Shown: in pieces, positions 1 through 14,009 of the stretch
Position numbering within the stretch: position 1 is the stretch's first letter
Layout: each line of letters begins with the position of its first letter
NCBI GenBank assembly: GCA_021014945.1
Contig: MU266633.1
Span: forward strand, 2,531 to 16,539
Length of the DNA: 14,009 nt
Reading direction: 5' to 3'
DNA from: Leucogyrophana mollusca
Lineage: Eukaryota > Basidiomycota > Agaricomycetes > Boletales
Made by a program: the position numbers and the translations under genes
The notes under the pieces: generated by a model
What the model was told of the DNA's origin: nothing
The model's database searches: none
What the model saw: only the letters and a program-made list of their open reading frames with translations

Positions 1-243
1 GACTTCGGAGACGATGACGAGACCGAATGGCTCGTAGACGAGATCAATGCCCACCGGTGGGTGGGCAGCAAAGTAGAGTTCCAGGTTCGTTGGAACCTGG
101 GAGACTCTACATGGGAGCCTTACAGCGAGTGTAAGGACCTAGAAGCTCTAGACAATTATCTAGAGCTTGCCGGAGTGGGCAACTGGCGACAGTTGCCCAA
201 GGCATCCGCGCGCCCTAAGGCGCGCGCACTTGGTAAAGGTTGA
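1..243 (+). CDS. pol: Pol polyprotein C-terminus with chromodomain (partial)
   Basis: The frame is open from the first base and stops with TGA at 241-243, giving 80 residues. Residues 10-55 read as a chromodomain: an EWLVDEI start, a strand ending in VEFQVRW, then the hallmark STWEPYSE and a C-terminal helix DLEALDNYLEL. In chromodomain Ty3/gypsy elements this module sits at the C-terminus of integrase, binds modified histones and directs insertion to heterochromatin. A basic tail follows (KASARPKARALGKG). The 5' end is cut off by the window edge, so no start applies. Hairpins at 31-42, 50-61, 81-100, 143-168, 176-199 and 207-226 lie inside the coding sequence. The domain call is firm; whether the full pol is intact cannot be seen. 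Confidence 0.85.
   Translation, partial: DFGDDDETEWLVDEINAHRWVGSKVEFQVRWNLGDSTWEPYSECKDLEALDNYLELAGVGNWRQLPKASARPKARALGKG
176..199. repeat. 10-bp hairpin with GCGA loop
   Basis: TGGGCAACTG pairs perfectly with CAGTTGCCCA around a 4-nt loop GCGA, which fits the GNRA tetraloop pattern if transcribed. It lies inside the chromodomain coding sequence. Confidence 0.85.
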
Positions 244-452
244 AGTCCAGTTTAGGACTGGACGCGCGCGTGGGGCCTCGGTCCGAGTCCCTGCCGCCGG
301 GATCCAAATTAGGATCCCGAGATTAACCCGAAATTAATGATTGACTCGTCGAGTCAATCTAGGCTTTACATGAGCGCGGAGCTCGAAATTATTTTAGTAA
401 GGCAAGAGGGACCCCTCTCGCTTTCTTACCCTACACCCTCATTGTCTAGACA
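244..452 (+). other. Non-coding spacer between pol and the next frame, rich in hairpins
   Basis: There is no gene here. The stretch contains consecutive stem-loops at 245-263, 299-318, 322-338, 339-359, 372-384 and 405-418. The last is nested in a weak outer stem (397-401 with 425-429). The spacer ends in the 20-bp palindrome at 438-457 that covers the next start codon. A structured leader controlling translation of the downstream frame is one possibility, but this is inference. Confidence 0.5.
339..359. repeat. 10-bp palindrome with one central base
   Basis: GATTGACTCG and CGAGTCAATC are exact reverse complements separated by a single T. The site is in the non-coding spacer between pol and the next reading frame. 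Confidence 0.85.
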
Positions 453-457
453 ATGAG
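438..457. repeat. Perfect 20-bp palindrome over a start codon
   Basis: CTCATTGTCTAGACAATGAG is its own reverse complement. The ATG at 453-455 lies in its right arm, so in an RNA hairpin the start codon would be buried in the stem. Confidence 0.9.
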
Positions 458-1454
458 CCACAAGCACACCAAGCAGCCCTCGGGCAGCCGCCAGAACACT
501 CGCCGTGCGTCGCCCCTAGGGGAGTTGCACGACGAGCCCATGGACCATGAGTCCACCGAACTGCCCTCCGCACCCTCGACAATGGCAACGTCGAAGAGGT
601 CGCGGTGTCCGAGCGACAACGATAGTCGCTCATCAAAACACCCACCCCACGGGTGGGTATTAAAACCCTTCCTGCAGACGGTAGCTCACGCTACCGGCTG
701 CCCCCACTGCTCCGCGTACATTGAGCACCTCAGTGAGGTGGACAGTACGTCGGGCAGCTTTGCGGCTGCCATCGAGGCGCGCAACAGCTTCTACGCTGAT
801 CGCGCAAATCGTGGCATGCTGCCCGGATGCGATGTCACCCTCTTGGAGGACGACGTGCGACGTTTTCATCGCAGTATGGAGGAGGCGTTCGCCACGCGTG
901 ACGAATACTTGCAGGAGTTGCGCGATCAGGATTCTGAGATCGCGACCCTCAAGGAGGAGCTTGCAGTTGCGCAGGCGCAACTGGCATCGGTGAGCATCCC
1001 GCTGGCTGCTCAAGGGGGGCGGGGGAGCGGCGGCTCCTCAAAACCGACAACGAGGGGCAAAGCTTCGAGCTTTGTTCCCCCGACGTCCAAACCACCCTTG
1101 CTCAACAAGGGTAAGACATTTGAACTGCCCTCAGTGGGCCCTGCGACGCTAGCGTCGCACACTAAGCCAACGGCGATGCTCGCGTCATCAACTAAAACCC
1201 CGGCAACGTCTTCGTTGCCCAATACCGCGAGCAAGCCCGCTGCGGTCCCGACCTCTGAAAAGGGGAAGGGACCTGCAGCCCCGATCCCTGAGAAGGGGAA
1301 AGGGAAGGACATCTGGATCGACTCGTCCCCGCCAGAGAAGCTGTCCAAGCGGGCCCGCAAACAGTTGAACCAGGAGGTCAACCCTAACCTCTTCGGATAC
1401 GTCACTGACGAATCCAACTCCGAGGGGGAGTGCGATATGAGAAGCGTGATATGA
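453..1454 (+). CDS. Extra 3' reading frame A, N-terminal part: unknown coiled-coil protein
   Basis: This is a 333-residue frame starting at the ATG inside the 438-457 palindrome and ending at TGA 1452-1454. I do not recognise a family. Residues 1-70 are Ser/Pro/Arg-rich. Residues 83-86 form a CPHC pair that might belong to a metal site. Residues about 130-180 (LEDDVRRF to AQLASV) are charged and heptad-like, a likely coiled coil. Residues 185-290 are Ser/Thr/Pro/Lys low-complexity sequence with repeated KGKG motifs, followed by a basic patch KRARK that could be a nuclear signal. No signal peptide or membrane segment is visible, so it does not look like an envelope protein. The same frame stays open beyond the TGA to 2093, so the natural product was probably one longer protein. 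Self-assembly or nucleic-acid binding is possible, but this is inference. Confidence 0.6.
   Translation: MSHKHTKQPSGSRQNTRRASPLGELHDEPMDHESTELPSAPSTMATSKRSRCPSDNDSRSSKHPPHGWVLKPFLQTVAHATGCPHCSAYIEHLSEVDSTSGSFAAAIEARNSFYADRANRGMLPGCDVTLLEDDVRRFHRSMEEAFATRDEYLQELRDQDSEIATLKEELAVAQAQLASVSIPLAAQGGRGSGGSSKPTTRGKASSFVPPTSKPPLLNKGKTFELPSVGPATLASHTKPTAMLASSTKTPATSSLPNTASKPAAVPTSEKGKGPAAPIPEKGKGKDIWIDSSPPEKLSKRARKQLNQEVNPNLFGYVTDESNSEGECDMRSVI
1142..1159. repeat. Perfect 18-bp palindrome inside coding sequence
   Basis: TGCGACGCTAGCGTCGCA is exactly self-complementary, with no loop. It lies inside reading frame A. Confidence 0.9.
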
Positions 1455-2093
1455 GTATCGCGAGACGAGCAGACCCAAGCGGTCTACGAAGACAACGGGG
1501 CGAGCAGCTCCGTTCCCAACCCGCCACGCAAGATCGTGGCAAGGAGAGGCAAGGGCAAGGCAGTCGAGACTGCCCCCCAAGCCGCGGAAGTACATGAGGA
1601 CGCCCCCGAGGTCCTCCCCGACGACTCCACGTTCTATGGACGTGGCGAGCAACCCCCAGGGTGGCTGGAAGGGGAGCGGGGGAACCTGCTCTTCCGCTTC
1701 GAGGGCAAAAAGGACGGGACCTTAGTGGTCCTGATTGGCGGTATGGAATACCGCTTCTCCGGCGCAGCTAGACTGCACGCGGAGACCACCATGGCCAATG
1801 GGGCCCCACCCTCTCTTGACGGCGCCCGTCAAGACGCCATTCCGCTGTTCAACAGCTACGCGGAATGGCGCAGTTACTTCGCACGCGCACAAAATCCATG
1901 CCTGCACGACATAGAAACGATCTATAAGATCAAACGCTATGTCGCGCACACGCAACAGGCCTCCCCAAGGACTTGGATTCAAGCCGTGGTCTTGGAGGAG
2001 TGGAGGACTCCCACTTGGTTCGCCAAGTGGAGGGAAGACCACCCTCCTGCGGCACCCTCGGGTGCCGACACTCGTTCTAATGTGCCTGCCTGA
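1455..2093 (+). pseudogene. Extra reading frame A, in-frame continuation after TGA
   Basis: Directly after the TGA at 1452-1454 the same frame continues without stops for 212 codons to TGA 2091-2093. The text still looks protein-coding: a KGKGK basic stretch, then a more ordered part with LLFRFEGKKDGTLVVLIGGM, then an aromatic, helical C-terminus (SYAEWRSYFARAQ, IYKIKRYVAHTQQ, WIQAVVLEEW, WFAKWREDH). The simplest reading is one protein of about 546 residues broken by a single nonsense codon, though stop-codon readthrough is not excluded. A GTG at 1536 begins another possible start, but I see no reason for initiation there. No domain is recognised. Hairpins at 1559-1574, 1738-1754, 1814-1834, 2011-2030 and 2050-2067 are embedded in it. 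Confidence 0.5.
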
Positions 2094-2129
2094 GGCATTC
2101 ACCCTAAGCCAGTGAAAAAAGAGGGCTGG

Positions 2130-2143
2130 CCCTGGTACCAGGG
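2130..2143. repeat. Perfect 14-bp palindrome between frames A and B
   Basis: CCCTGGTACCAGGG lies in the 65-bp gap between the two extra reading frames. It is followed at 2161-2178 by a 7-bp hairpin with a TTCG loop that begins at the last base of the next ATG. Confidence 0.85.
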
Positions 2144-2158
2144 TTGTACCGAGAATAA

Positions 2159-2858
2159 ATGGCCATGTTCGCATGGCCCATTGCCCCGACATTCGAACCT
2201 GTGCGGTTCGAAGGACACGTCGACAACCTGACGGAGGACGACGTTGCCCGGCACTTAGCGCAGTGCGGGGTAACCCTCCATCAGGTTGATGACATTCAAC
2301 CCTATGCGCGACACTGGCTGTCGTGCTGTCTGGACACCTGTCATGGGTTCCTGATGGACGACGAACGACGAACGCGCCGTCCTCAGCAAACGCCTGGCAA
2401 TCGCGGCGTCCCCGGACGCGAGTACCACCCTCTCTCTCGAGGGACGTGCCGAGCTCGAGGCAATCGCGCGCAAGCAGGGGACCGAGCTCCCCGACGCTGC
2501 TCCCGCCTCGAGGTTATTCTCATCGTTAGACGATGAGCAGATGAGCCTGCTGGCTGATCCCCCCACCATGCACAATTTAGTCACGGCCAGTGCGACATCT
2601 GGACTTGTCGCTGGGGGGTTCGCCACCACCAATCCGTTGGTCGACGTGGACCACGAAATGGCCACGATTGTCCCCAACAATGAGCGGCAGCTCATCATCA
2701 GCCGTCCCCGCGACTCTCCCCCTCCTGGCGAGGGGGCGGTCTCTCTCAACTACCGAGAGGGAGATGTACCCGTCAACATGAGCATTGACGCCGCCCATGT
2801 CCCCGATGACCTAACCGGTCATCCCAACGTCCCCGCTAACGAGGCCCCGCCCTCGTAA
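2159..2858 (+). pseudogene. Extra 3' reading frame B, broken by a 7-bp duplication
   Basis: The frame starts at ATG 2159, with TAA immediately upstream in the same frame. It reads about 67 good codons (including TEDDVARHLAQCGVTLHQVD) and then loses frame at a 7-bp tandem repeat, ACGAACG at 2361-2367 and 2368-2374. After the repeat, coding text resumes in the frame that ends at TAA 2856-2858 (KRLAIAASPDAS, GRAELEAIARKQGTELPD, SSLDDEQMSLLADPP, a Pro-rich end). Without one repeat unit the two parts join in frame to about 230 residues. The protein is acidic, alanine-rich and unknown to me. The TEDDVARHL...VDDI stretch vaguely recalls unnamed proteins encoded by Agaricomycete gypsy elements (memory only). 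It follows frame A by 65 bp and is followed by the 3' LTR. Confidence 0.5.
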
Positions 2859-2872
2859 GCGTTCCATCACTC

Positions 2873-2892
2873 ACGCTACCCTAGGGTAGCGT
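2873..2892. repeat. Perfect 20-bp palindrome after frame B
   Basis: ACGCTACCCTAGGGTAGCGT is exactly self-complementary. It lies 15 bp after the stop of frame B and just before the pyrimidine-rich tract. Confidence 0.9.
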
Positions 2893-2894
2893 CT

Positions 2895-2940
2895 GTTTCA
2901 TTTTCCTTTTCCTTTTCCTCATCATTCTCATTTTCCCTTA
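2895..2940. repeat. Pyrimidine-rich tract with CCTTTT/CATTTT units
   Basis: The + strand is almost purely pyrimidine here, with short units such as CATTTT and CCTTTT repeated. It lies between the palindrome at 2873-2892 and the last hairpins before the LTR. No coding role is seen. Confidence 0.6.
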
Positions 2941-3065
2941 CTTAAAATATGCAAGTACCTCTGTGGTACTTGCTCTCTGTACTACTTCTGCTTAGTACAT
3001 TACTGTACCACCACCCGCACGTCTCGACGCGCGCCGCTAAAATTATCAGAGTCCCAAGGGACTCT

Positions 3066-3076
3066 AGTGGGGGGAG
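3066..3076 (+). promoter_or_regulatory. Polypurine tract priming plus-strand DNA synthesis
   Basis: AGTGGGGGGAG lies directly against the LTR start TGTAAGGGG. This is the expected position and composition of an LTR-retrotransposon polypurine tract. It follows an 8-bp hairpin at 3048-3065 with no gap. Confidence 0.75.
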
Positions 3077-3933
3077 TGTAAGGGGCTGTTACCCTTTTAG
3101 GGTGACAGCTCATATACTCATTCCTATCTACTATAAATAGTTACAAAAACCTTATTTACAGTAACATTGTACTTACTCATTCACTTACCATCAATACTAC
3201 CAAGTGGTCATGTTAGTGGTTCGAGTGATCAAGTATAACAAAAACCTTACATTCACTCCTCGGCCACTATCGCAGAGTTACAGAGTTGTGGTGTCAAAGG
3301 TACGTGCTCGCCGAGACGCTTGGACTGCGTATCAAGGATAGAGTAGCTGCCAACCTGACTGTAGTACAAGTAGGCATTCTTGTATTGTAGACCACAGTGA
3401 AGAACACCCCTGTTTCTTCAGCTCACATTTTGAAGTCCATATCTCTAAGCAACAGCGCAACCAAGAGTCTTTGACTTATTGGTGGCGTATATCACTTATA
3501 GTGTTCACCCCTCTGGCAACTCATTAGTGTACTACCCATTTGGCGTTCCCCTTTCAGTGTTCTTACTCTTTAGCATTCTCTCCCCTTCGGCGACTCTCTA
3601 GTGACCAGCGTATCCCCTCGGCGATCCAGTTTCAGTCTCTTGACCTTAGTAGCAGCGTACAGCTTGGGCGACGGGTCTTGGACCTGATTGCAATCCAGTC
3701 TAACGCTCACTCGGTTATACTTGCTCGCTGTGTATCTTGACCAGTGATTGAGTTGTATCCTATACTAACCAAACCCCCTTTTCCCCTCACTGACCTCGGC
3801 TGTCACCCAGTCAAGACTCAGAGGTCCTAGTTGGAGATCCGCGCACCTCTCAGACTAGTTCCACAGGTAGCGAGCACATTGATGTTCGTCAATAATCCAT
3901 GTTCTCGCTACCAAACACTTTTGGTGCATGACA
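3077..3933 (+). repeat. 3' long terminal repeat of the gypsy element
   Basis: The LTR starts with TGTAAGGGGCTGTTACCC directly after the polypurine tract. A second, diverged copy of positions about 3258-3850 exists in inverted orientation at 8764-9402, which confirms that this non-coding stretch is a dispersed repeat. The 3' end is uncertain. It could be ...TTCCACA at 3865 or ...GCATGACA at 3933. I prefer 3933 because element-style hairpins (3866-3912 and 3910-3925) continue to there. The length is therefore about 790-860 bp. Three degenerate CCCCTYGGCRAC-like units lie near 3509-3525, 3582-3597 and 3614-3627. No reading frame inside it looks real. Confidence 0.7.
3131..3140 (+). promoter_or_regulatory. 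TATA box in the LTR
   Basis: CTATAAATAG lies 54 bp inside the LTR. It fits a pol II TATA box for the element's transcript and is itself a small inverted repeat (ACTAT-AA-ATAGT, 3130-3141). If correct, U3 is very short. Confidence 0.4.
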
Positions 3934-4360
3934 GCGGAAAGAAACAGGAGGTGATAAAGCTGATATTCAAACTGAGGTAAAGACATACATCAGAGCAATA
4001 TCCATACTATGGAGTCGGGCTGTGCTACTGAGCGTATGTGGGTACAGTATCTGGAAACTGGTGAAACAAAAACAATAAGGAAAACAAAGAAGGAATGGTT
4101 CTGGAGGATGGAGTGAGTCCTGAACTTGGAAGAAGCTATGTAAGTTGGACAGGCATAGGATTAGTATGACAACATCAGGAAATCCGCAAATTTCTTGGCG
4201 TGATTTAATGCCGCTTGGAGTTCTTATTTTATCCCTCAAGTAAATTAAGCACAACAAGTACGTGCAATACTTATTTGATGGCCTGAGTGTAAGTATAGCA
4301 AGCAAAAAAATGGAATTAAGTATCACTCAAGTAGTTTTCATACATACAATAGAAACAAAT
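3934..4360. other. Non-coding DNA between the LTR and the Plavaka pseudogene
   Basis: I see no gene, RNA or repeat here. The open stretch on the minus strand (3967-4326) has no recognisable motif and reads as chance. It may contain the 3' untranslated region and terminus of the Plavaka element, but I could not identify an end. Confidence 0.4.
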
Positions 4361-6645
4361 TCAAATTTTTAAGCTAATAGTAAATGCATGATGATTGGCA
4401 TATATATTGACATAGTATGCAATGAAAAGATCATATGAATGACAATGCTTGATCTCCTTTGGTAAGAAATTTGAACCATATACAGGGAATGAGCGGCTCC
4501 AAAAATGGAATCAACATGTATCACTAAAATCTCTCTCAAGCCATCTTCATTGAACCGTGGTTCAACCTTCCACATGCCCGTGTCCTCGTCAGGGCCGTTG
4601 CCAATGCATGCAAACCAATGCACGACCGCTGATGGATACAGGGTCCCCCGGAACACAAATGAGAAAAAGCATAGTATGCGGGCAATATTGAGCCCCCACA
4701 TGCCGTTTAAGCCAGAGTTAATATTAACAAAACGCAATCATACTGAGGGTAACGCTTGCTCCACGATGGTGTGGCACAAATATGTTCTCTTTTCATGCCT
4801 TCAACACCGCTCAGGTCACTCAGGGCATAGAATATTGCACTGGAAGAATTGAACACCAAGATCTTGCCTTCGAAATGTAGACATTCAGCCAGGGGGATCT
4901 CATCTGTGCTCCAATAATCTTTGGGGTGGATTTGAGTGTGCAGGAGGTGTCGGATGAATTGGGGTTCTCTGAGCTCCTCAGCCAATGTAGGCACAGTCTT
5001 TGGTCGCTTGTGTTCTGAGATATATAGTTAGTTTACATTGCTGTATACTAAGAAAAACTTCAAAACTCACAAGGTGTTCAAGCCAAGTCGATGTGAGCTT
5101 GGACAGCCGGCCCGTTGACTATCTCGTCATCGTCCTGTGCATCTTCATCACGGGGTGCGTCTGTGGTGTCTGTTGTCTGTGCAGGTGTGGTGTGAGCTGG
5201 GGGCTGTGTGTCTGCACTGATTGGACCTATTGACTGTCAATGATATGAACCACTTACCAAGCTGATGAAGCCTGTTGGATAGGCATGTTCCATCCAACAT
5301 TCCATAGCTCTTGAAGTTGACGCCAGATGCAGTGATTTTATCAAGGCACTGGTTAGTAAGTAACATCTGGCTGAGCACCTCGAAGTGGCTTAAACGCCGC
5401 CATGGCTTTTTTACTGCTTTGATATGTTTGGACTCTGTGATAGAGGAACAGAGGCCATTGGGGGAGCCAAACATACATGTGAGCATAAGATATGTTGCCG
5501 AGAAAGGGATAAGTGTTGGCGTAAACCGACTGTCTGGAAAATTACCCGGTATTTATGGAACTGCTCGAGTGTGTCCTGTAGCTGTAGGAGACTATCTTTG
5601 GTGTGATAGTTGCGCCGCGCAATATAACAAAATTCTAGAAATGCGCAAATCATTCACACAATGTCTTGAGGGACATGGCCTTTGATAGCAGGTAGATAGA
5701 CCTAAGATAAAAGTCAGAAAATGTCGAAGCAAACAACACTGACTGACCTTCATGAGTGCTTTTGAATTGTCACCTGTCCATTGTTTGAATCCATGGCCAT
5801 CAGGAAATCTCCATAATCCGGCACACAGCGCAACAGCTGCAATCCTACTGTAGCTGTCAGGTCTACGTTTGGGGATCTGAGTGGGAAGACTCACCAATGG
5901 TCAATATTGTCCAAGATCTTGGCCGCCTCGGTTTTCCTGTGCTCCATCTTGAGGTATTCTTGGACCCAGGTCACAAGATGGTCCTTGAACGTCCCCTTGA
6001 TGAGTTGATGTAAGATGTCCGGCATGAGGAGCTTGTGAATGTCTGCATGAGAGAAATCATTGGTAAAGGGCTGTTGGATAGATATTGTATCAGATTGATA
6101 ATGTGTTTTGAGAATGGTCCTTACCACCAGATCCCCCACAAGACCATACTCATTCCACAGAGTCTTGAGGTCAAGTTTGTCAATAAGTATGCGAACATGT
6201 TCGCGACTACGTTTGGTGGCGCTGTCATTGAGTCAATCCAGAAATGCTGTTGACAGGTCAATCAACGTGCCGTTTGCATCACCCTGCAAGAATATCAGAT
6301 AAATGTCAGATATTCAGCACATGGCTCACCATCAAGTGCCTCATGGTAATTGCGCACTCAAGCTTTGGGACCAGGGGAACCTTGGCGAGATCTGAGAGGA
6401 GAGGACAGCTGGTAGTGTGCATTGCCCGTCATCGTGTCGTAATGGGGTTCGTAAGGATCCTCAATTTCCATTGCATCTTCCTGAGCAGGTGGAAGATGTG
6501 CATGTGTAAGTGGGGAGTTGAGATGCTGGGTCGGCCCAGACTGGGTTTTGAAGTAGCATTGACAGCCTAGGTATGTGCAAGGTAAGAGGTGAGTGTTGTG
6601 GGTGTGATGGTGAGCGCTCTGAGTGCACAGAATGCTCTGTGCCAT
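4361..6645 (-). pseudogene. Plavaka-type transposase, internally deleted and broken
   Basis: The likely ATG is at 6643-6645. Residues 23-60 carry a degenerate C2H2-like finger (CTYLGC...TQHLNSPLTHAH), then an acidic linker and YHEALDG...DANG. The text then jumps to KLDLKTLWNEYGLVGDLV, FTNDFSHADIHKLL, HQLIKGTFKDHLVTWV, GFKQWTGDNSKALMK, AFLEFCYIARRN, GLCSSITESKHIKAV, SQMLLTNQCLDK, ILCFFSFVFRG and PDEDTGMWKVEP, ending HHAFTISL with TGA at 4361-4363. This order matches the Plavaka transposases I remember, but a central few hundred residues are missing near 6200-6240. Introns fit at 6071-6124, 5848-5894, 5702-5747 and 5015-5070, and less cleanly near 6284-6329. Nonsense codons lie at 6358-6360, 6233-6235, 5654-5656 and 5078-5080, plus a TAA split across the last intron. 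Frame breaks lie near 5490, 5230-5257, 4730 and 4487. The copy cannot make active transposase. Confidence 0.85.
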
Positions 6646-6888
6646 GGATTAAGTCGAGTGGGGAAGTTGGGGAGGTGGGAGAGACATATAGATCCATGTA
6701 TATAACCTTGTATGGTGAGGCATGCAGTGGGTGCATGGAGTAAGCATGTTTTGTTTGTAGACGCCTATAAAATTTACAAGTGCAAACATACACTGGACCC
6801 TACCCTCCCCACCTTCCACCTGTCAGCATCTGCATTGTTGCCCTGCTCCCTTCTCTATCCACTTTCGCTGCTGATCTTCTCGCTTACA
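6646..6888. promoter_or_regulatory. Divergent promoter between transposase and accessory gene
   Basis: This 243-bp spacer separates two start codons pointing away from each other. On the plus strand CTATAAAA lies at 6765-6772, about 120 bp before ATG 6889, followed by a pyrimidine-rich stretch up to the start (CTTACAATGG). On the minus strand TTATATAC lies near 6697-6705, about 55 bp before the transposase ATG. The arrangement fits a shared bidirectional promoter. It is inferred from motif and position only. Confidence 0.45.
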
Positions 6889-8510
6889 ATGGCTATCAAA
6901 ATGTGTGCCAAGAATGTGACTCAGCATCCCAGTGAAATCTTGCTGAGGGACAAACAGGTTCCTCCTCAGAATAGAAGGCCAAGGATGACCAGCATGAGCG
7001 GGAAGTAGTTGAGCAGCAAGTCACTGCTAAACAGGCTGGGTTGGCTCATATTGCCACTGTTGAGGATAAGTTGGCAGTGGCGGAGGTAAATGAGTCTGCT
7101 AACCCACCTCAGCCTAAGCCCCACCCTCGGCGACCCTCACACAAAGCCATTGAAGCCACAGAGAACAACACTGTTGAGGAGTCTGTGGCAGCTGCTACAG
7201 AGAGCAGCGCCAGTGCGCCATGCAGTAAGGGAAAAGGGAAGCTGAAAGAGGTGGTCGGAGTACCAGGTGGAGATGGTGATAGCGGTGATAACAATAGTAA
7301 TGCGCCAACAGGGAAGGGTTGTAAGCGTAGGGCACAGCAGACAACACAGAGAGGTGCCATTCAGGCTGCCCGCTAGTTCTCAGGTGATTGGATGGAAGCC
7401 CTAGGCACACATCAGTAAATGGGGTGAGTCATTCCTTTTCGGGCATTTCCATATTTAACAATCTATCTACAGCACTCAACTTCGACCACCGCTGGCCAGG
7501 TCCAAGCCTTGCAATAACCACCCTGGCAGAGCTCACCACCCCCCGCAAACACTCCAGCCATCAAGAGGAAAGTGTCTGCACTCAAGATCTCTGACTCTGA
7601 GCCAGATACCAGTGATAACGACTTCCTGGCGAACACAAATGATATCTTAGTTGACAACAACGACATCTCAGGGGACGACATTGCCAACGATGCCAAGAAA
7701 ATGGAGCTCAAGCCACCGCCCCCAAGCCAACCACACAATACCACCATGGTAAGTCATTTTATGAATGCAGACAAGGTCCTAACATTTGCACAGACCAGCA
7801 TCAAGGTTACACAACGGGCTGTTGTGGTCCCTGCCACAAGACGAATCAGGGCGGCTTCGAGCCGCAACACCCAAAGTGTAGAAGGATGGTGCTGTAACCG
7901 TAAGTTCTACCACTCAGCTGTCCAACCACTCCTTCCGTTTGGCCTTGATCTCTGTGGACACTGACAACAGTGGCAATAGCAACAATTACAACAGCCATGG
8001 CAACACAGCGGTGATGCACTGCATCCATTACACAAACCCTCACCTGCCGGTGGGAGTGTTCCCGGAGAGTCGTGGTGTGTATATGTTGCCCCTTATTTTT
8101 GTATGGAGATCCCACATTTTAATATAAAGGGTGCCCTCACATTGTCTGCCACCACCGTAAGTTGTCCCCTTGATATGTGCCCAGTATCTGATGTTTCCCC
8201 CTCACCTCAGGCAGAATATGTACTGTGTCTTGCTGCCACGGGTAACCTCAAAATCTCAGATGAGGATATGGATATGATTGCAGCCAAAGGCAAGGGTAAA
8301 AAGCTTGTGGCAGTTGCTACAACGCTGAACAAGTCGACCGGCAAGGAGAGCAAAACAGCAACGGGTTTCAACGAGGGGAATTGGGGCACCGTGGCCAGGA
8401 AGTACATGGAATCCGTCAATAACCTGTCCGATGAATCGTTGAAAGCAATTTGTGATGAGGCCCAGCAAATTGCCATCATCTGGAGATGGAAAAGCTTGTT
8501 CTTTGCATGA
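6889..8510 (+). pseudogene. Decayed accessory gene divergent from the Plavaka transposase
   Basis: ATG 6889 opens with CAKNVTQHPSEIL. This resembles a K-N-x-T-Q-H-P motif that I remember in many unnamed Agaricomycete proteins (memory, not a search). The frame then shifts near 6965. Coding text resumes after TAG 6972 with EKAKDDQHEREVVEQQ and a helical, KGKGK-containing part to TAG 7374. Further pieces are an acidic Ser/Asp stretch (7521-7748), TQRAVVVPATRRIRAASSR (7809-7866), a segment near 8040-8100 (HLPVGVFPESRG), and IPHFNIKG to NEGNWGTVARKYMESV (8106-8430). Introns fit at 7424-7472, 7749-7793 and 8157-8210. Another in-frame stop lies at 7515-7517. The function is unknown. The head-to-head position suggests an accessory protein of the same transposon, comparable in role to TnpA of CACTA elements (inference). 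Confidence 0.55.
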
Positions 8511-8529
8511 TTGCTGATTATTCTGGATT

Positions 8530-8768
8530 TGTTTATTGGTATATACAGATTCATCAAAGGTAACATCACAGGATAGTAGCACAGTATATCTTTCCTTGTC
8601 CCAGAAACAATAGTCTTTAGAGCCTGGCTCATATCCTACAAATACCATAGCTTTTGCTTTTATGGCTAGCTTGTTTTGTCTTCCTTCTTTCTGTATATGG
8701 ATATATGCTAGACATCCAAATACACCAGAAATATGATATATCCAGTATGGTTCCATTCCAGAGTGTAA
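8530..8768 (-). pseudogene. Ty1/copia pol fragment (integrase C-terminal region)
   Basis: On the minus strand the text runs LWNGTILDIS, then after a small frame break HISGVFGCLAYIHI, AKAMVFVGYEPGSKDYCFWD and CDVTFDESVY. This order (KPDISHLRVFGC, then FVGY...K.Y..W, then RDVTFDE) is diagnostic of the region after the integrase core in Ty1/copia polyproteins. Only about 75 codons survive. Upstream the fragment stops at the start of an LTR-derived repeat (8764), and downstream it meets the end of the Plavaka accessory gene near 8510-8530. It is a truncated relic with no start, no catalytic residues and no product. The frame remains open past the copia part on the minus strand, but that is the reverse of the accessory gene. 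Confidence 0.75.
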
Positions 8769-9402
8769 TAGGATATCTCCAACTAGAATCTCTGAATCTT
8801 GACTAGATAACAGCCGAGGTCAGTGAGGGGAAGGAGGTTAGTTAGTATAGTATACAACTTGAGCATAACCAAGTGAGACTGCCTGAATGCTAATGCAATC
8901 GGATAGCAAACAAGGTCATCAAAGTTGGTATGAGACCACTAGAATAATGGTAGACTGGGTTGTGATCGAGTCTGAGACCGGTTGCCCAAGTCGTATGCTG
9001 GAACAGAGGGTCAAGAGGCTATAATATGGATCACCAAGGGATACACTGGTCGCCAGAGAGCCACTGAAGGGGTGAGAATGCTAAAGAGTGGAAACATCAC
9101 AGGGGAACACCAAATGGGGAATACGCTAATGAGTCCCCAGAGAGGGAAACACTATGAGAGATATATGCTACCAAGAAGTCAAAGACTTTCAGTCATGCAT
9201 TGCTTAGAGGTGTAGACTTCAAAACTGTGAGCTGAAGAGTGGGGTGTGCTTCACTGTCTTTTACAATACAAGAGTATCTACTTATACTACTTCTAGTCTG
9301 ACAGCCACTCAACCTTTGGTACACAGCCCGTGTATCTCAGGGAGTGTGTACCTTTCAGATCACAACTCCACAACTCTGCAAAAGTGGCCAAGGAGTTACT
9401 AT
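8764..9402 (-). repeat. Old, inverted, truncated copy of the gypsy LTR
   Basis: Read on the minus strand, this stretch aligns end to end with about 3258-3850 of the 3' LTR. Shared blocks include GATCTCCAACTAG-like ends, CAGCCGAGGTCAGTGAGGGG, GAATGCTAAAGAGT, AAGTCAAAGACT and GTGAGCTGAAGA (given on the + strand of this copy). Many differences are CpG in one copy and CpA or TpG in the other. The first ~180 bp of the LTR (start and TATA region) are not recognisable. The + strand edge starts TGTAATAGG at 8764, beside the copia fragment. No internal region follows, so it is a solo or truncated LTR much older than the element at 1-3933. Confidence 0.85.
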
Positions 9403-9960
9403 TGATAGAGTACCAGCCTAGACATCATGGAAGCGTTGGGAAAGCGTGAGGCAGTGTCCTGGGTTGAGGGTGATTGGAATTGATGTGGGTCAACAATAAC
9501 TTGTCTCATTGATGGACATGGGCTTCTGCAACTCTGGCCTACCAGCCAGAGTGTTGGGGACACCTGTGATGTAAGGATAACAAAGCCCTGGGCATAGGGG
9601 AAGGGTAGACCCTCCCCCTAAAGGGGGGAGGGGATGAAACAGGAAACCTCCAGAGGGACGATGGAATCACCCAAAGTCGCCTGCTAATGTGCATCCTGAT
9701 TTCCTGGGGGTTTTGTCCTTTGGGACTTATCAGGCAGGGCACACACCCCACTACCCCCAGTTTTTTCGCAACAAACAGGTGGCCCTTTTATAAGGGCATC
9801 TTAGAATAGTCAGCGGTACCAGAACTTGCGGTGGGGATATACCCGCAATTCAGCCAGGTGCAAGGAGCCTTCTTGGCATTCGTTCAACGAGCAACTGGTT
9901 AGTGACTATGTCTGGATTACAATATAATCACTCACCACACACCTTTTAGCTGTTGAAAGA
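9403..9960. other. Non-coding region, possible LTR at 9570-9921
   Basis: There is no gene. The segment 9570-9921 starts TGTAA and ends TTACA, and it has a TATA-like TTTTATAAGGG at 9786-9796, so it could be a 352-bp LTR of another family. Matching 5-bp target duplications are not seen (TGTGA before, ATATA after), which weakens this. A 9-bp G/C hairpin (CCCTCCCCC with GGGGGAGGG, 9610-9632) lies near its start. Confidence 0.25.
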
Positions 9961-9969
9961 AACCTCTGA

Positions 9970-10572
9970 GTGCAAGGTGAGGCTGAAGTAGCAACAACGA
10001 GGGACAACTCTGATAGTGACAACGAGTCTGAGGGGAATGAAGAGGAAGATGATCTCCAGCTACCAAACAGCAACAGACCTTACCAGATGAGTCCAGAGAG
10101 TAATGCACCACCCCTGGATGTGGGCAGTGATGCATCACAGCCAGATGTGACCAGTGATGCATTACATAAGGACCCAGTCAGTGCTGTATTTGACATTGTG
10201 AGTAATGTATCACGTGCACTCCAATACAATACTGACCATATCAATGTATTAATCCAGACATCCCAGTCACACACCATTGGTGCTCCCAATGTGGAGGGCT
10301 TAGGTGCCATGGTGGGACTCACAAATAATCTAGATTTTATCCTCCTATATGGTAAATTTGACTTGTTCATCCAGCAACTCCACCCTATGACTAATCTGCT
10401 TGGGGGCAGCATTGTTAACTTGTTCATTGGCCTTAACACATACACACGTACAGAAACCCTGCCATACCAATCTACCCATGTCATGAACCTGTTTTGCAGA
10501 GTGTGGATATCCTCAGCGACTATATTGAATTTGAGGCAGATGTGCAAAAGCTTTACGAACTCGATGAAATGA
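9970..10572 (+). CDS. Possible acidic-protein exon, unknown
   Basis: This 200-codon open frame begins without an ATG, so a real start would need an upstream exon. A possible acceptor (TTTTAG) lies at 9944-9949. Residues 13-28 are very acidic (SDSDNESEGNEEEDD). A small internal repeat follows (DVGSDAS then DVTSDAL). About residues 70-115 look like an ordinary amphipathic protein. From about 10320 on, the opposite strand carries recognisable Tnp2 transposase, so the later part of this frame is probably a shadow and only 9970-10320 may be coding. I do not recognise a family. Confidence 0.25.
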   Translation: MQGEAEVATTRDNSDSDNESEGNEEEDDLQLPNSNRPYQMSPESNAPPLDVGSDASQPDVTSDALHKDPVSAVFDIVSNVSRALQYNTDHINVLIQTSQSHTIGAPNVEGLGAMVGLTNNLDFILLYGKFDLFIQQLHPMTNLLGGSIVNLFIGLNTYTRTETLPYQSTHVMNLFCRVWISSATILNLRQMCKSFTNSMK

Positions 10573-11135
10573 TCATAGTACCTTCTCTTTGAGGATTGCT
10601 GATAGAGTAAAACTGGTCCAAGATACAGTGTCCAGAAGGACCGAGAGTCGGCAGTACACATTGAGCGTTCCTTCACAATGTTGGGTGGTCGAGCGCCAAA
10701 TGCAGAAGGTAGTGATGGTCCTGCAGCAGCCGTTGCTGCACCAATAGCCTCCCAAATGCGTGGTCCCAGTTCATAGCTTCCACTTCCCCCGTTGATCCCC
10801 TTGAACTCTTCTGTCCAAAGTAAAACCAGATTCTTGATCAAGTTTTCCCAGATCAAGTACATGAAATCATAAGGAAAAGATGCAGGGAATGAAAGTGAGG
10901 TGAGGTAACTTAATACTGGCATGCCCTTGACACCATATTGTTTTGAGAGTCGGTCCATTTCAGCAGCTGTGGCTGCCAGTTGGACTTTCTGTCCTTGGGC
11001 AAACATTTCATCATGGGCCCGCATTGGCAAATTGCCGGGATGGTACTTTTTGACTGCCGTCGCTGAAGTGCACACATTGGGGTGGTTACTACGGTCCAAT
11101 GGCACATAGTGAACTGGATTTCGTGACCCAGGGAC
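10320..11135 (-). pseudogene. Tnp2/CACTA-type transposase fragment
   Basis: A minus-strand frame stays open from 11234 to 10080. The part from 11135 to about 10320 reads as Agaricomycete Tnp2 transposase: PVHYVPLDRSNHP, NLPMRAHDEMF, AEMDRLSKQYGVKGMPVLS, FPYDFMYLIWENLIKNLVLL, GPRIWEAIGAATAAAG, PSAFGARPPNI, CTADSRSFWTLYLGPVLL and YYDHFIEFVKLLHICL. These are the C-terminal half of the remembered family; the N-terminal part with the early catalytic residues is absent. After LTMLPPS (near 10390) the family pattern is lost or compressed, with only KSNLPYRRIKSRL still similar, so an internal deletion is likely. There is no start and no complete product. It abuts a plus-strand gene at 11139 almost without spacer. 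The family call is confident from these motifs; activity is excluded by truncation. Confidence 0.8.
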
Positions 11136-11138
11136 AAA

Positions 11139-12152
11139 ATGACAAATGAAAACGTACCCCCAGTAGCACCCAAGTCTAGGAAACCTGGGACCATGCAAAA
11201 CAGTCCGACGGCAGTAAGAAATGGAGGCATGCAAAAAACAAACACCGCACCTACCAAGAAAGCACTGGTTTTGAAAACAGCAGCAAAGTCAGTCACAAAA
11301 GTGCCCACTGTTACCAAGCAAGTCCTGCAAGAGAAAAACAGTGAGCTCATTGATGAACTTGAAAGACTCAAGGGTTAGTTGGTGGATCTTGCTCCCATCT
11401 TCGAGGATACTAAACTGTGCAAAGCACAATTGCTCCAGGCACATGATGCTCGAAAGGAAGCAGAGAAGACTGCAAAAGAGGCCAGAAAGGAAGCTGAAGA
11501 TGTAGCTAAAAATACCATTGCCAAAAACACACCCACTGGCATGGTTCCCAAGCCAAAAGCAGCCGACTTCAATGAGGGCACAGATCAATTGAGGAAGGCA
11601 ATGAGTTTAATGGACGATAAAACAGAATATCTTGTGATACAAGTGAGCCACCGTCTTTTAGTGGTTGCATACCAATCGATGCACTGATTGATGGCTAATG
11701 CCACATGTATCAATAGGGAACCATCCATGATCTGGTCCCTTGTGTTGGCCTGGACTTCGCTGTCAAATATACCGATCAGTCATCCAGTGAGCTTGGAAAG
11801 CTATTTAAGTTGGTGAATCAGGCTGAAAAGAATACCACTCACAGTGGCTTATTGTTGGTTTTTACCCAGGCACGCCATGCTCACCCACTCCCGGGGCGTT
11901 TTCAGAACAATTGGGCGACAGCAGAGCTAATTAAACAGTACCTTTGCAATCGCTGCAAAAGCGTTGCCAAGAAGCAAAAGAACAGCACTTATGGGGGTTT
12001 CTTTACAACCACTCAGTGGTTGTAAACATCGCCACATTGATGATTCAGTTGATAACGAAGAATTTGACCAGGAAAGTCGTGAGAGTGACGATGAAGAGGA
12101 AGCACCTGCCAGGGCTGATGGGAGTGTTGATGAGGATGAGATCTATGCCTAA
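11139..12152 (+). pseudogene. Decayed coiled-coil/acidic gene head-to-head with Tnp2
   Basis: ATG 11139 (ACAAAATGAC) opens 79 residues rich in Lys, Thr and Pro and ends in a heptad-like stretch (EKNSELIDELERLKG) at TAG 11376-11378. The same frame continues in good coding text: a Lys/Glu/Ala coiled coil (ARKEAEKTAKEARKEAEDVA), then FNEGTDQLRKAMSLMDDK, an intron fitting 11644-11714, and HDLVPCVGLDFAVKYT, ELGKLFKLVNQAE and RFQNNWATAELIKQYLCNR. A frame break near 12000 leads to an acidic tail (HIDDSVDNEEFDQES...DEDEIYA) ending at TAA 12150-12152. The W-A-T-A-E-L-x-K-Q-Y-L motif resembles an unnamed protein family I remember from Agaricomycete genomes. The TAG is one C-to-T change from CAG. The function is unknown; a transposon accessory (DNA-binding or assembly) role is inferred from position. 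Confidence 0.5.
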
Positions 12153-12740
12153 TTCAAGTGCAGGTTAGTGTCCGTGGTGAAGATCTGACAGTACCAATTG
12201 ATGTCCCATCCCAATGATATCTGTGATAGCCCATAATTCCGTGTATGGTTGATGTTTACTAAGATGTGTTGTGCAAATCACTATTTTCAACGACGTCAAT
12301 TCACCTCTCTATCTGGGAGAAATCACTTTAAAAAGCACGTGAAGATCACTCTCTTACTGGGCTGAAATCACGACTATGAAATGGTACATATCACTCAATG
12401 AGAATGACTAAAATTACCCAAGTAAGTAGTGATCATTGCTACTGATTCTGTCCTTCAAAGAGTGGTGGATTCGGTAAAAAAAAGCGGTGTTAATCACCAG
12501 TTTTTGACACCTGCATCCTAAGTGATCTTAAGCCAGCAAGGGGGATTCCCACCCACAAAACTGTCTATATTCACCTTTTTCGTGGGTGCTGAGGTGGGTG
12601 AAATTAGCCTCCCCTGGGGTGTACAGTGATTTGCTGCACCTTGGTACTACCATTCCTTGCACTTTGCTGGGGGCTTGTACCACTTATGCTTATATCTTGC
12701 TGTGAGCTTACTGCTTTCTGTGGGTCTAGTATTATAAGGA
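12153..12740. other. Non-coding region with minisatellite and a nested inverted repeat
   Basis: No gene is seen. A degenerate minisatellite occupies about 12271-12428. A small nested inverted repeat lies at 12551-12601: ACCCAC with GTGGGT (12582-12587), overlapping TTCACC with GGTGAA. The rest is AT-rich and featureless to me. Confidence 0.5.
12271..12428. repeat. Degenerate minisatellite, 22-23-bp period
   Basis: The word ATCAC (once TTCAC, once ATTAC) recurs at 12277, 12300, 12322, 12345, 12367, 12390 and 12413, spaced 23, 22, 23, 22, 23 and 23 bp. The surrounding bases follow a loose consensus GTGAAATCACTCTCTTACTG. Seven diverged units in tandem are the simplest explanation. It is not a CRISPR array, because the conserved core is too short and the units vary throughout. 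Confidence 0.6.
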
Positions 12741-12920
12741 CCTGTAGTTGCAGTGCTACTAGTATTTACCACTTGCTATAACTCTAGTAGCACTAGCACC
12801 CACTACTTCTAGCATGCAATAACAGGTACAGCAGGAACGAGATGGGGCTAAATCTACTCTCGGTATCTCATGTTACCAAATATAATGATAGGACATATTA
12901 TACACCATTCTGCACCTTTT
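12741..12920 (+). repeat. Left terminal inverted repeat
   Basis: This arm matches the reverse complement of 13425-13613 at roughly 80% by eye. Near-identical blocks include ACTAGTATTTACCACTT, TAGTAGCACTAGCACCCACT and GGGGCTAAATC-ACTCTCGG. Confidence 0.8.
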
Positions 12921-13142
12921 TTAAGACCTGATTCTGAATGCCTTCACTTGGTATACAATTATAGATACTCACTTTTACATCTGACTGATATTTAGTTTTC
13001 ATGAATATTTATGCTACTTGCTTCTCTATTTTTGAGCTGAGCTTTGAGGTTATTACTAAGGTAAGACCTGATTCTAAATCCACTCATATAGCACTACAGT
13101 CCTAGATACTCAGTGTTACATCTTCTTGATGTTCAAAATTCC
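12921..13142. repeat. Internal direct repeat of about 80 bp
   Basis: TAAGACCTGATTCT at 12922 and 13062 starts two related stretches (about 12921-13005 and 13061-13142). They continue with AAT-CC, then TAGATACTCA-T-TTACATCT and a TGAT-TT end. They are diverged direct repeats inside the TIR element, with a shift of 140 bp. Confidence 0.65.
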
Positions 13143-13424
13143 ATAATAAACCTGATAACAAAACTATAATGGCTACACTGAGCTCAAAACCAGCTCAAAT
13201 GACAAAGAAAGGGTAGGAATAGGGTCCCCTAGTATAGAGCTACCATCCTAGACCATAACTATACTCATAACCCTTCCTTTTTTTCAACAAGCCATCCCCT
13301 TGAGTAGCTCTCTGTAAAGAAGGCTACAAGATTTTATTTCACAGAAGCTGTGGAAAAATATACCCCAGGGCCAACCCAGGACTTCCATTATAAGATCTGT
13401 GACCACCACTGCATTCATATTGAA

Positions 13425-13613
13425 AAATGGTGCTAAATGGTATATAATATGTTCTATTACTATATTTGGTAATATTAGATGCCGAGAGTGGATTTAGCCC
13501 CATTTGGTTCCCACCGTACCTGCTATTACATATTAGAAGTAGTGGGTGCTAGTGCTACTAGGGTTATACTAAGTGGTAAATACTAGTAACACTGGGCCCA
13601 TAACAACTATAGG
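13425..13613 (-). repeat. Right terminal inverted repeat
   Basis: This is the reverse complement of the left arm (12741-12920), with scattered substitutions and one insertion of about 9 bp near the outer end (around 13595-13603). Confidence 0.8.
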
Positions 13614-13657
13614 TGCTGGGTCAGTGGGCTGAGTGTTGGTATTGGGTTTTGGTTTGT

Positions 13658-13959
13658 GTTCAGTGGGGAGGATACATGGATGGATGGTGATGGTGACAAT
13701 GACAACAGTGAGGGTGATTTGGAAGGAGAACAGCAGTTGAAGATGTACCAACTAATGGAAGGTTGACTTTTGAGGTAAAAGGCTCTTCACAAAAGAGTGA
13801 AGTTTATATACTTGAGTTGAGTTACAAACACCACTTGGTCATTGGTTACTGAACTCTTGTGTCTTTTCAGTAATGTCAAGCTTACAGTGGAATCTGCACT
13901 GATGCTGCCTCTCTGGCCCAGCATCACCGAGGATGCATTCAATGGTGTATTTACTACTG
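13658..13959 (+). pseudogene. Possible broken two-exon gene fragment at the window edge
   Basis: An acidic stretch (MDGDGDNDNSEGDLEGEQQ, near 13675-13730) runs into QLKMYQLMEG and a TGA at 13764-13766. One frame over, GRLTFE reaches a donor GTAAAA at 13775. After a possible acceptor (TGTCAAG, ending 13880) the text LTVESALMLPLWPSITEDAF and NGVFTT reads on to a donor GTAAGC at 13960. The second piece looks protein-like, but I do not recognise it, and the first part needs a frame change. It may continue beyond the window. Confidence 0.25.
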
Positions 13960-14009
13960 GTAAGCTTCTGGAATTTATTAACTTTAACATAGTCCTGAAC
14001 CATATTGTC

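Follow-up and report, generated by a model that had tools for sequence, protein, structure and literature searches.

The window analyzed here, 14,009 nucleotides of contig C307 (C307:2531-16539) in the 32.3-Mb assembly of the wood-decay fungus Leucogyrophana mollusca (order Boletales), begins with the 3′ half of a Ty3-type long terminal repeat (LTR) retrotransposon, and this element is saturated with short perfect hairpins. An earlier, sequence-only reading had recognized a retroelement here, and this identification held, as the domains could be read in related copies and the LTR in the window itself. A domain search of the copy on contig C378 gave the pol order RVT_1, RT_RNaseH, Integrase_H2C2, and rve; the C497 copy showed RT_RNaseH, H2C2, and rve (the last at 31.5 bits, just below the cut-off). 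The pol of related copies also contains an SH3 stretch that is Tf2-1-like (SH3_Tf2-1), and a weak Chromo match was found at the C-terminal end of pol in the window (E=6.5e-4; 20 bits, below the cut-off of 25.1). Among named proteins, the element reverse transcriptase (RT) best matched one of Meripilus lineatus, with 71% identity across 74% of the query. On the C497 copy, three open reading frames (ORFs) lie between an LTR-like stretch and pol, in the position of Gag; none has a Pfam match.

Element features in the window (plus strand, except the gap point, which has none):
1–243: C-terminus of pol, including a chromodomain-like stretch (Chromo below cut-off); stop codon at 241–243; 6 hairpins
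244–452: non-coding stretch from pol to the next ORF; hairpin-rich
453–1454: 333-aa ORF without a Pfam match above cut-off; 9 hairpins
1536–2093: 185-aa ORF without a Pfam match; 5 hairpins
2126–2127: gap point of the window copy; about 213–215 nt absent here are present in the C393, C363, C414, and C170 copies
2159–2536: 125-aa ORF without a Pfam match; 3 hairpins
2541–2858: 105-aa ORF without a Pfam match; 2 hairpins
2859–3076: 3′ non-coding stretch; 4 hairpins; purine-rich tract at its end, before the LTR
3077–3251: 3′ LTR (TGTAAGG...CCTTACA; 175 bp), with the alignments of several further copies stopping at 3251/3252
3085–3109: LTR hairpin read in the sequence, 10 pairs including one T.G, loop TTTTA

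Hairpin number and shuffled controls

A mechanical scan for perfect inverted repeats (stem of at least 7 bp, loop of 0–8 nt) found 34 hairpins in positions 1–3075 of the window and seven in the remaining 10.9 kb.

Hairpins of positions 1–3075 from the perfect inverted-repeat scan (no strand assigned; stem in bp, loop in nt):
48–67: stem 8, loop 4
81–100: stem 8, loop 4
118–136: stem 7, loop 5
143–168: stem 10, loop 6
176–199: stem 10, loop 4
207–226: stem 8, loop 4
245–263: stem 7, loop 5
298–319: stem 8, loop 6
339–359: stem 10, loop 1; two single changes in other copies, uncompensated
438–457: stem 10, loop 0
611–631: stem 7, loop 7
640–658: stem 8, loop 3
679–696: stem 7, loop 4
726–740: stem 7, loop 1
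964–983: stem 9, loop 2
1058–1074: stem 7, loop 3
1094–1112: stem 7, loop 5
1142–1159: stem 9, loop 0
1202–1219: stem 7, loop 4
1559–1574: stem 7, loop 2
1738–1754: stem 7, loop 3
1814–1834: stem 9, loop 3
2011–2030: stem 8, loop 4
2050–2067: stem 8, loop 2
2130–2143: stem 7, loop 0
2161–2178: stem 7, loop 4
2192–2212: stem 8, loop 5
2519–2537: stem 8, loop 3; two further copies have G-C at one of its A-T pairs
2718–2736: stem 7, loop 5
2805–2823: stem 7, loop 5; three further copies have G-C at one of its A-T pairs
2873–2892: stem 10, loop 0
2951–2973: stem 9, loop 5; same stem in 5/5 aligned copies, loop variable
2978–2999: stem 7, loop 8
3048–3065: stem 8, loop 2

Dinucleotide shuffles of positions 1–3075 contained a mean of 1.69 such stems and at most 7 (200 shuffles), and shuffles within local blocks of 60 nt contained a mean of 2.0 and at most 9 (200 shuffles). 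For stems of at least 8 and at least 9 bp, the scan gave 19 and 9, compared with 0.5 and 0.1 in the dinucleotide shuffles. When synonymous codons were shuffled, the ORF at 453–1454 kept 0.66 hairpins on average (maximum 4) vs 9 observed, and the ORF at 1536–2093 kept 0.41 (maximum 3) vs 5 observed. The two short ORFs were inside the range of their synonymous shuffles, with 3 vs 0.5 (maximum 3) at 2159–2536 and 2 vs 0.65 (maximum 5) at 2541–2858. With the exception of these two ORFs, the shuffled controls for dinucleotide and codon use that the sequence-only reading had called for thus fell far short of the observed number. Its own count of 32 hairpins between 81 and 3065 was right to within one (33 in our scan), and its rough chance expectation of about 1.7 agrees with the dinucleotide mean. 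The scan and the shuffles by segment also bear out its remark that the hairpins ignore the borders between coding and non-coding sequence.

All 34 stems differ in sequence, as had been stated, and the longest word common to any two of them is 7 bases. Fungal mitochondria harbor dispersed double-hairpin elements, which are many short hairpins repeating one sequence; the stems of the present element repeat none, and the distinction drawn earlier between the two is therefore sound. Positions 3252–14009 were at background (7 stems vs 5.4), in line with the earlier description of 4000–14009 as nearly hairpin-free, and the saturated stretch is richer in GC than this flank. The claim that hairpins are largely absent from the body of the LTR did not survive, as it rested on a wrong boundary: flanking DNA had been taken as LTR, which spans 3077–3251. 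The LTR itself has no perfect stem, which says little for a sequence of 175 bp, as about 2 would be expected at the density of the element. The LTR of the C204 copy is 177 bp long and has the same ends as that of the window, with TG...CA termini in both.

Distribution and evolution of the hairpins

The DNA-level survey covered the L. mollusca genome. The element clade was defined by eight DNA matches to the 333-aa ORF (the window included) and 24 matches to a pol stretch, the latter including several pieces of single copies. Fifteen pol stretches from 14 contigs were aligned. Eight of them form clade I (86–97% alike), and C404, C442, C529, C283, and C302 form clade II (83–96% alike, and about 70% alike to clade I, with a range of 63–73%); C204 (about 80% alike to clade I) and C535 (about 67%) fall outside both. 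Hairpin density was 5.2–10.9 per kb in 14 of the 15 stretches, the exception being C302 with 1.4. The gag-side ORFs of the C497 copy are saturated too (30 hairpins in 3.3 kb), and the segment missing from the window at 2126/2127 holds 2–3 stems in about 214 nt, as counted in three other copies.

Thirty integrase loci were cut out of 36 matches in the genome. Three were saturated, all of them in the element clade, and the other 27 were near background, with 0–8 stems per locus and a total of 73 vs 41 by shuffling (about 1.8 times). An integrase locus with 57% GC (L027) had 1 stem vs 1.4 by shuffling, and a copia element was likewise near background (5 vs 3.6 stems in 7.2 kb). Six stretches that interrupt element copies, recognized as such because the aligned flanks abut, contained 2 stems in 4.5 kb. 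Since the element is saturated while inserts, flank, and other loci are near background, hairpin saturation belongs to the element's own sequence and not to the place, the host, or composition; among the loci checked, it is restricted to one element clade. The sequence-only reading had named the same density in unrelated genes of this genome as an outcome that would speak against it, and the flank, the copia element, and the 27 integrase loci did not show it. Relatives of the element were also sought in viral contigs, and none were found.

Stem evolution was followed by reading the pairs of each stem of one copy in another copy, with re-dealt partners as the null; related copies are reused in these counts. 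Two-sided changes that keep Watson-Crick pairing exceeded the null between copies at least 85% alike (60 vs 14.6) and in deep comparisons, below 82% (370 vs 163), where unpaired double changes numbered 188 vs 200 re-dealt. By distinct columns, 64 of 651 stem pairs showed at least two Watson-Crick types and a few showed three (e.g., G-C, T-A, A-T). An independent pair counter applied to one slice of 501 columns found 10 cells changed on both sides vs 4.8 (3/500), with a covariation score at 1/500. The compensatory changes for which the earlier reading had proposed to search aligned copies are thus present. From clade to clade, 14/39 stems of clade I and 9/18 of clade II were kept up with at most one pair lost, and the rest were replaced. 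The stems therefore coevolve, and they turn over while the overall density is kept. The proposed comparison of stems gained and lost between copies accordingly confirmed turnover, and changes confined to one arm were hardly enriched.

Third-codon sites differed by 0.076 in stems vs 0.116 outside (35% less), with stem positions taken from a third copy to avoid bias, and the stem/non-stem ratio at first and second codon positions was like that of the third. In the RT of the C378 copy, codons wholly in stems matched the majority of 14 homologs in 72% of 83 cases, compared with 68% of 321 outside; where column conservation was at least 0.9, the mismatches were 1/49 in stems and 10/126 outside. Judged from these sequence comparisons, the structure appears to be written in the freedom that the protein code leaves. 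We also observed that differences among clade I pol copies are mostly C to T and G to A and that their frames are mostly broken by TGA, as from deamination in silent copies.

Predicted folding and its possible causes

Predicted folding energies of 350-nt fragments were compared with those of dinucleotide shuffles. The folding excess was 25.3% for C307, 35.1% for C378 pol, 28.6% for the C497 gag side, and 31.7% for C442, and all 33 fragments of these four stretches, which together sample the gag side, pol, and the 3′ ORFs, fell below z=-2. The same script gave 28.7% for MS2 and 32.3% for Qbeta, and seven controls (the flank, the copia element, and five other integrase loci) gave -0.2 to 3.9%, with 8/81 fragments past z=-2. 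The element RNA is thus predicted to be folded as tightly as an RNA phage genome. The predicted pairs are local, with a median span of 15–18 nt vs 28–32 nt in controls. The stems in excess have loops of 0–7 nt with a mode at 4–5 and a sharp drop at 8; among long stems, those of 7–10 bp dominate, and those of at least 11 bp are rare. Closing pairs are C-G in 45/90 and G-C in 18/90 cases, and, compared with spacers, loops are enriched in A and depleted in C. The commonest stem phase sets third against second codon positions (53/117; the others 33 and 31, some of the ORFs being homologous copies). An Rfam scan of the window gave no match at the gathering score. A regular spacing was also considered and set aside, as a strong peak at 28–39 nt came largely from counting related copies; the non-redundant set kept an excess at 31–36 nt (29 vs 17, reached in 0.6% of simulations) but no clear peak beyond it.

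The best reading of these results, and in our judgment a fairly probable one, is selection for pervasive local folding, as in the genome-scale ordered RNA structure (GORS) of viruses, here acting in a retrotransposon. Coding freedom and the non-coding stretches would serve, along the whole element, to build and maintain short local Watson-Crick hairpins, typically with a stem of 7–10 bp and a loop mostly of 3–7 nt. As being folded is kept, and not any one hairpin, what is selected would be the fold of the element RNA, possibly that of single-stranded cDNA too. The gain may lie in a poorly accessible transcript that anneals little with antisense RNA or small-RNA guides; we suggest this with less confidence, the alternatives being packaging by Gag and RNA stability. 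Piwi-domain matches occur on four contigs of the host and RNA-dependent RNA polymerase (RdRP) matches on five, so that RNA interference (RNAi), for which these Argonaute- and RdRP-type matches speak, is probably present. Stems of 7–10 bp are shorter than what Dicer cuts. Fold-back template switching at existing hairpins may supply part of the mutations, and a mixture of selection and copying is likely.

Several observations weigh against selection for RNA folding. The missing preference for GU counts against a simple RNA reading: in stems with a single mismatch, GU and AC numbered 7 vs 9 (7 vs 10 in a second count); one-sided changes gave 207 vs 213 in close and 369 vs 453 in deep comparisons; non-Watson-Crick states shared within clade I gave 22 vs 21; and GU makes up 5–7% of predicted pairs, compared with 11% in MS2/Qbeta and 10–14% in controls. 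The comparison of GU with AC mismatches had to be abandoned as a test of RNA selection. MS2 and Qbeta are RNA phages under structural selection, and as the two together barely separate GU from AC (8 vs 6), it has little power. The folding excess of the antisense strand is, on average, equal to that of the sense strand. A strand difference was likewise dropped as a criterion, as C307 prefers sense (-0.92 +- 0.28) and C442 antisense (+0.89 +- 0.31), the average is nil, and the folding of MS2 and Qbeta is also symmetrical between strands. In the 501-column slice, pairs changed on both sides were not in clear excess (5 vs 4.0; 181/500), and further pair types numbered 13 vs 15.7; unpaired double changes are somewhat raised in close copies (7 vs 3.1). 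Stems taken from other clades show no constraint in clade I (0.0864 vs 0.087), which is expected if most stems are not shared. Stems with long loops are in some excess as well, for example at 15 nt (9 vs 1.6) and at 21–30 nt (21 vs 7.6). The hairpins are also not spaced to touch every 21-mer, and tiling against small interfering RNAs was rejected, as the share of 21-mers touching no hairpin is that of random placement in all four segments.

The main alternative to folding selection is a copying process, in which fold-back template switching, most simply by the element's own RT, writes the hairpins: one arm would become the reverse complement of the other, with mismatches repaired, protein selection would filter the results, and selection for folding would not be needed. 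Template switching in RNA genes is described in PMC8794818; there, loops of 4 nt are overrepresented, and the process is recognized by inverted loops and multiple compensatory changes. The stems of the element are strictly Watson-Crick with no preference for GU, its loops are dominated by 4–5 nt, and two-sided transversions between groups are frequent (139 vs 56 re-dealt), as such a process would have it; within clade I, however, none was seen. One pol loop is inverted, reading TGG in the C378 copy and its reverse complement CCA in five other copies, but this is 1 event in 445 loop comparisons, with one partial case in 56 in the window's half. Where a stem has been gained, template switching would confine the differences to one arm. 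Among lost stems with four differences, the one-sided share was 0.17 (of 29), compared with 0.06 in control windows, whereas lost stems with two, three, or five or more differences did not exceed the controls, and two-difference cases over all stems were less one-sided (0.25 vs 0.44). Stem sites also differ less than non-stem sites, which pure arm-to-arm correction should not give, and the RT codons in stems show no protein damage. As the differences of lost stems are not one-armed beyond controls, save in the four-difference class, we consider that copying alone is rather unlikely to be the explanation. A variant in which the element palindromizes itself, with RT fold-back continually making hairpins, protein selection confining them to synonymous sites, and folding as a by-product that later pays, seems marginally less likely again. 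Of the interpretations that the sequence-only reading had left to be separated, folding selection is thus supported by compensatory change, lower stem divergence, and the intact RT, and the copying process is weakened, with one inverted loop to its credit.

Selection could also target DNA, through cruciforms or through hairpins formed by single-stranded cDNA, and not RNA. The average strand symmetry and the lack of a GU preference would fit, but the two RNA phages are equally symmetrical, and loops of the sense strand are purine-rich (0.592 vs 0.536, P=0.019; the A-T and G-C excesses are singly borderline, P=0.086 and 0.051). In addition, the T.G pair of the LTR hairpin in the window is C-G in the C204 LTR, where another pair is T.G, so that sense-strand T.G falls at different pairs in the two LTRs. 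We regard this explanation as improbable. Composition, codon use, or a genome-wide property, which had already been thought unlikely, has next to no probability left. The GC-richness of the saturated stretch and the 1.8-fold stem number of the 27 other integrase loci would speak for it, but the dinucleotide and local shuffles fall short, as do the synonymous ones of the two longer ORFs, and it is refuted by these shuffles together with L027 and the hairpin-poor inserts.

Comparison with known systems and further observations

The earlier statement that no described family has this feature stands for retrotransposons, as our searches of the open-access literature found none described as hairpin-saturated; it does not extend to RNA viruses, for which a like property is described (PMC7642675). 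The element is like GORS in its whole-length folding excess over dinucleotide-preserving shuffles, in consecutive short-range stem-loops within coding sequence whose individual pairings are poorly conserved, and in the lower variability of paired sites, the last not being seen with stems from other clades. It thus matches GORS in three tested respects, the structure being a predicted one. GORS is, however, described for viruses with RNA genomes, and, compared with MS2/Qbeta, pairing in this LTR retrotransposon keeps more strictly to Watson-Crick pairs and is more local. These phages share its folding excess (29% and 32%) and strand symmetry but have 2.0 and 3.6 perfect stems per kb, compared with 9.7 in the element, and a larger GU share of predicted pairs (11% vs 5–7%). 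With the template-switch hairpins of PMC8794818 the element shares its perfect stems, its compensatory changes, a loop size near 4 nt, and one inverted loop; in contrast, it shows little sign of one-arm changes and has about ten hairpins per kb over the stretches studied. As in other Ty3/Gypsy elements (Metaviridae) of Agaricomycetes, RT, RNase H, integrase, SH3_Tf2-1, a chromodomain-like stretch, and a TG...CA LTR are present, but the element is hairpin-saturated, and 0/27 of the other integrase loci checked in this genome are.

In RNA viruses, pervasive ordered structure has been tied to persistence, but what causes it is difficult to disentangle from the replication of an RNA genome. The present case offers a natural contrast, as a saturated clade stands beside unsaturated LTR elements in the same host, with the same RNAi genes and related pol proteins. 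Two questions become testable: what selects for folding of a whole genome, and whether hairpins are built by template switching or by point mutation. A folded transcript would be expected to resist annealing with antisense RNA and guides.

Other features of the element were noted. The 333-aa ORF, which lies between pol and the 3′ LTR, had six database matches: itself (an L. mollusca protein, 99% identical over the full length), four further L. mollusca proteins, and one unnamed ENA protein; all five named matches are therefore from L. mollusca. The first 34 bases of the LTR (3077–3110) have eleven further mismatch-free sites on ten contigs, perhaps solo LTRs. Locus L015 (C497:1-9990) is a tandem arrangement, in which the end of one copy is followed by the LTR-like stretch (about 815–988) and by the gag side and pol of the next copy; it contains two inserts of about 0.7 kb that are nearly devoid of hairpins. 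The inverted-loop hairpin of C378 (L010:3387-3405, minus strand) alters a Gln that is nearly invariant in the RT/RNase H protein. A small hairpin with a GGCTGTG stem is common to the other integrase loci L029, L044, L047, and L050.

In the flank, the stretch at 3706–3871 is a repeat that is 93% identical to part of a stretch interrupting the C363 copy (L017:6529-6691). An ORF at 8256–8756 on the minus strand resembles a copia polyprotein remnant, as judged by eye, and a single perfect hairpin of 12 bp with a 1-nt loop is found at 12002–12026.

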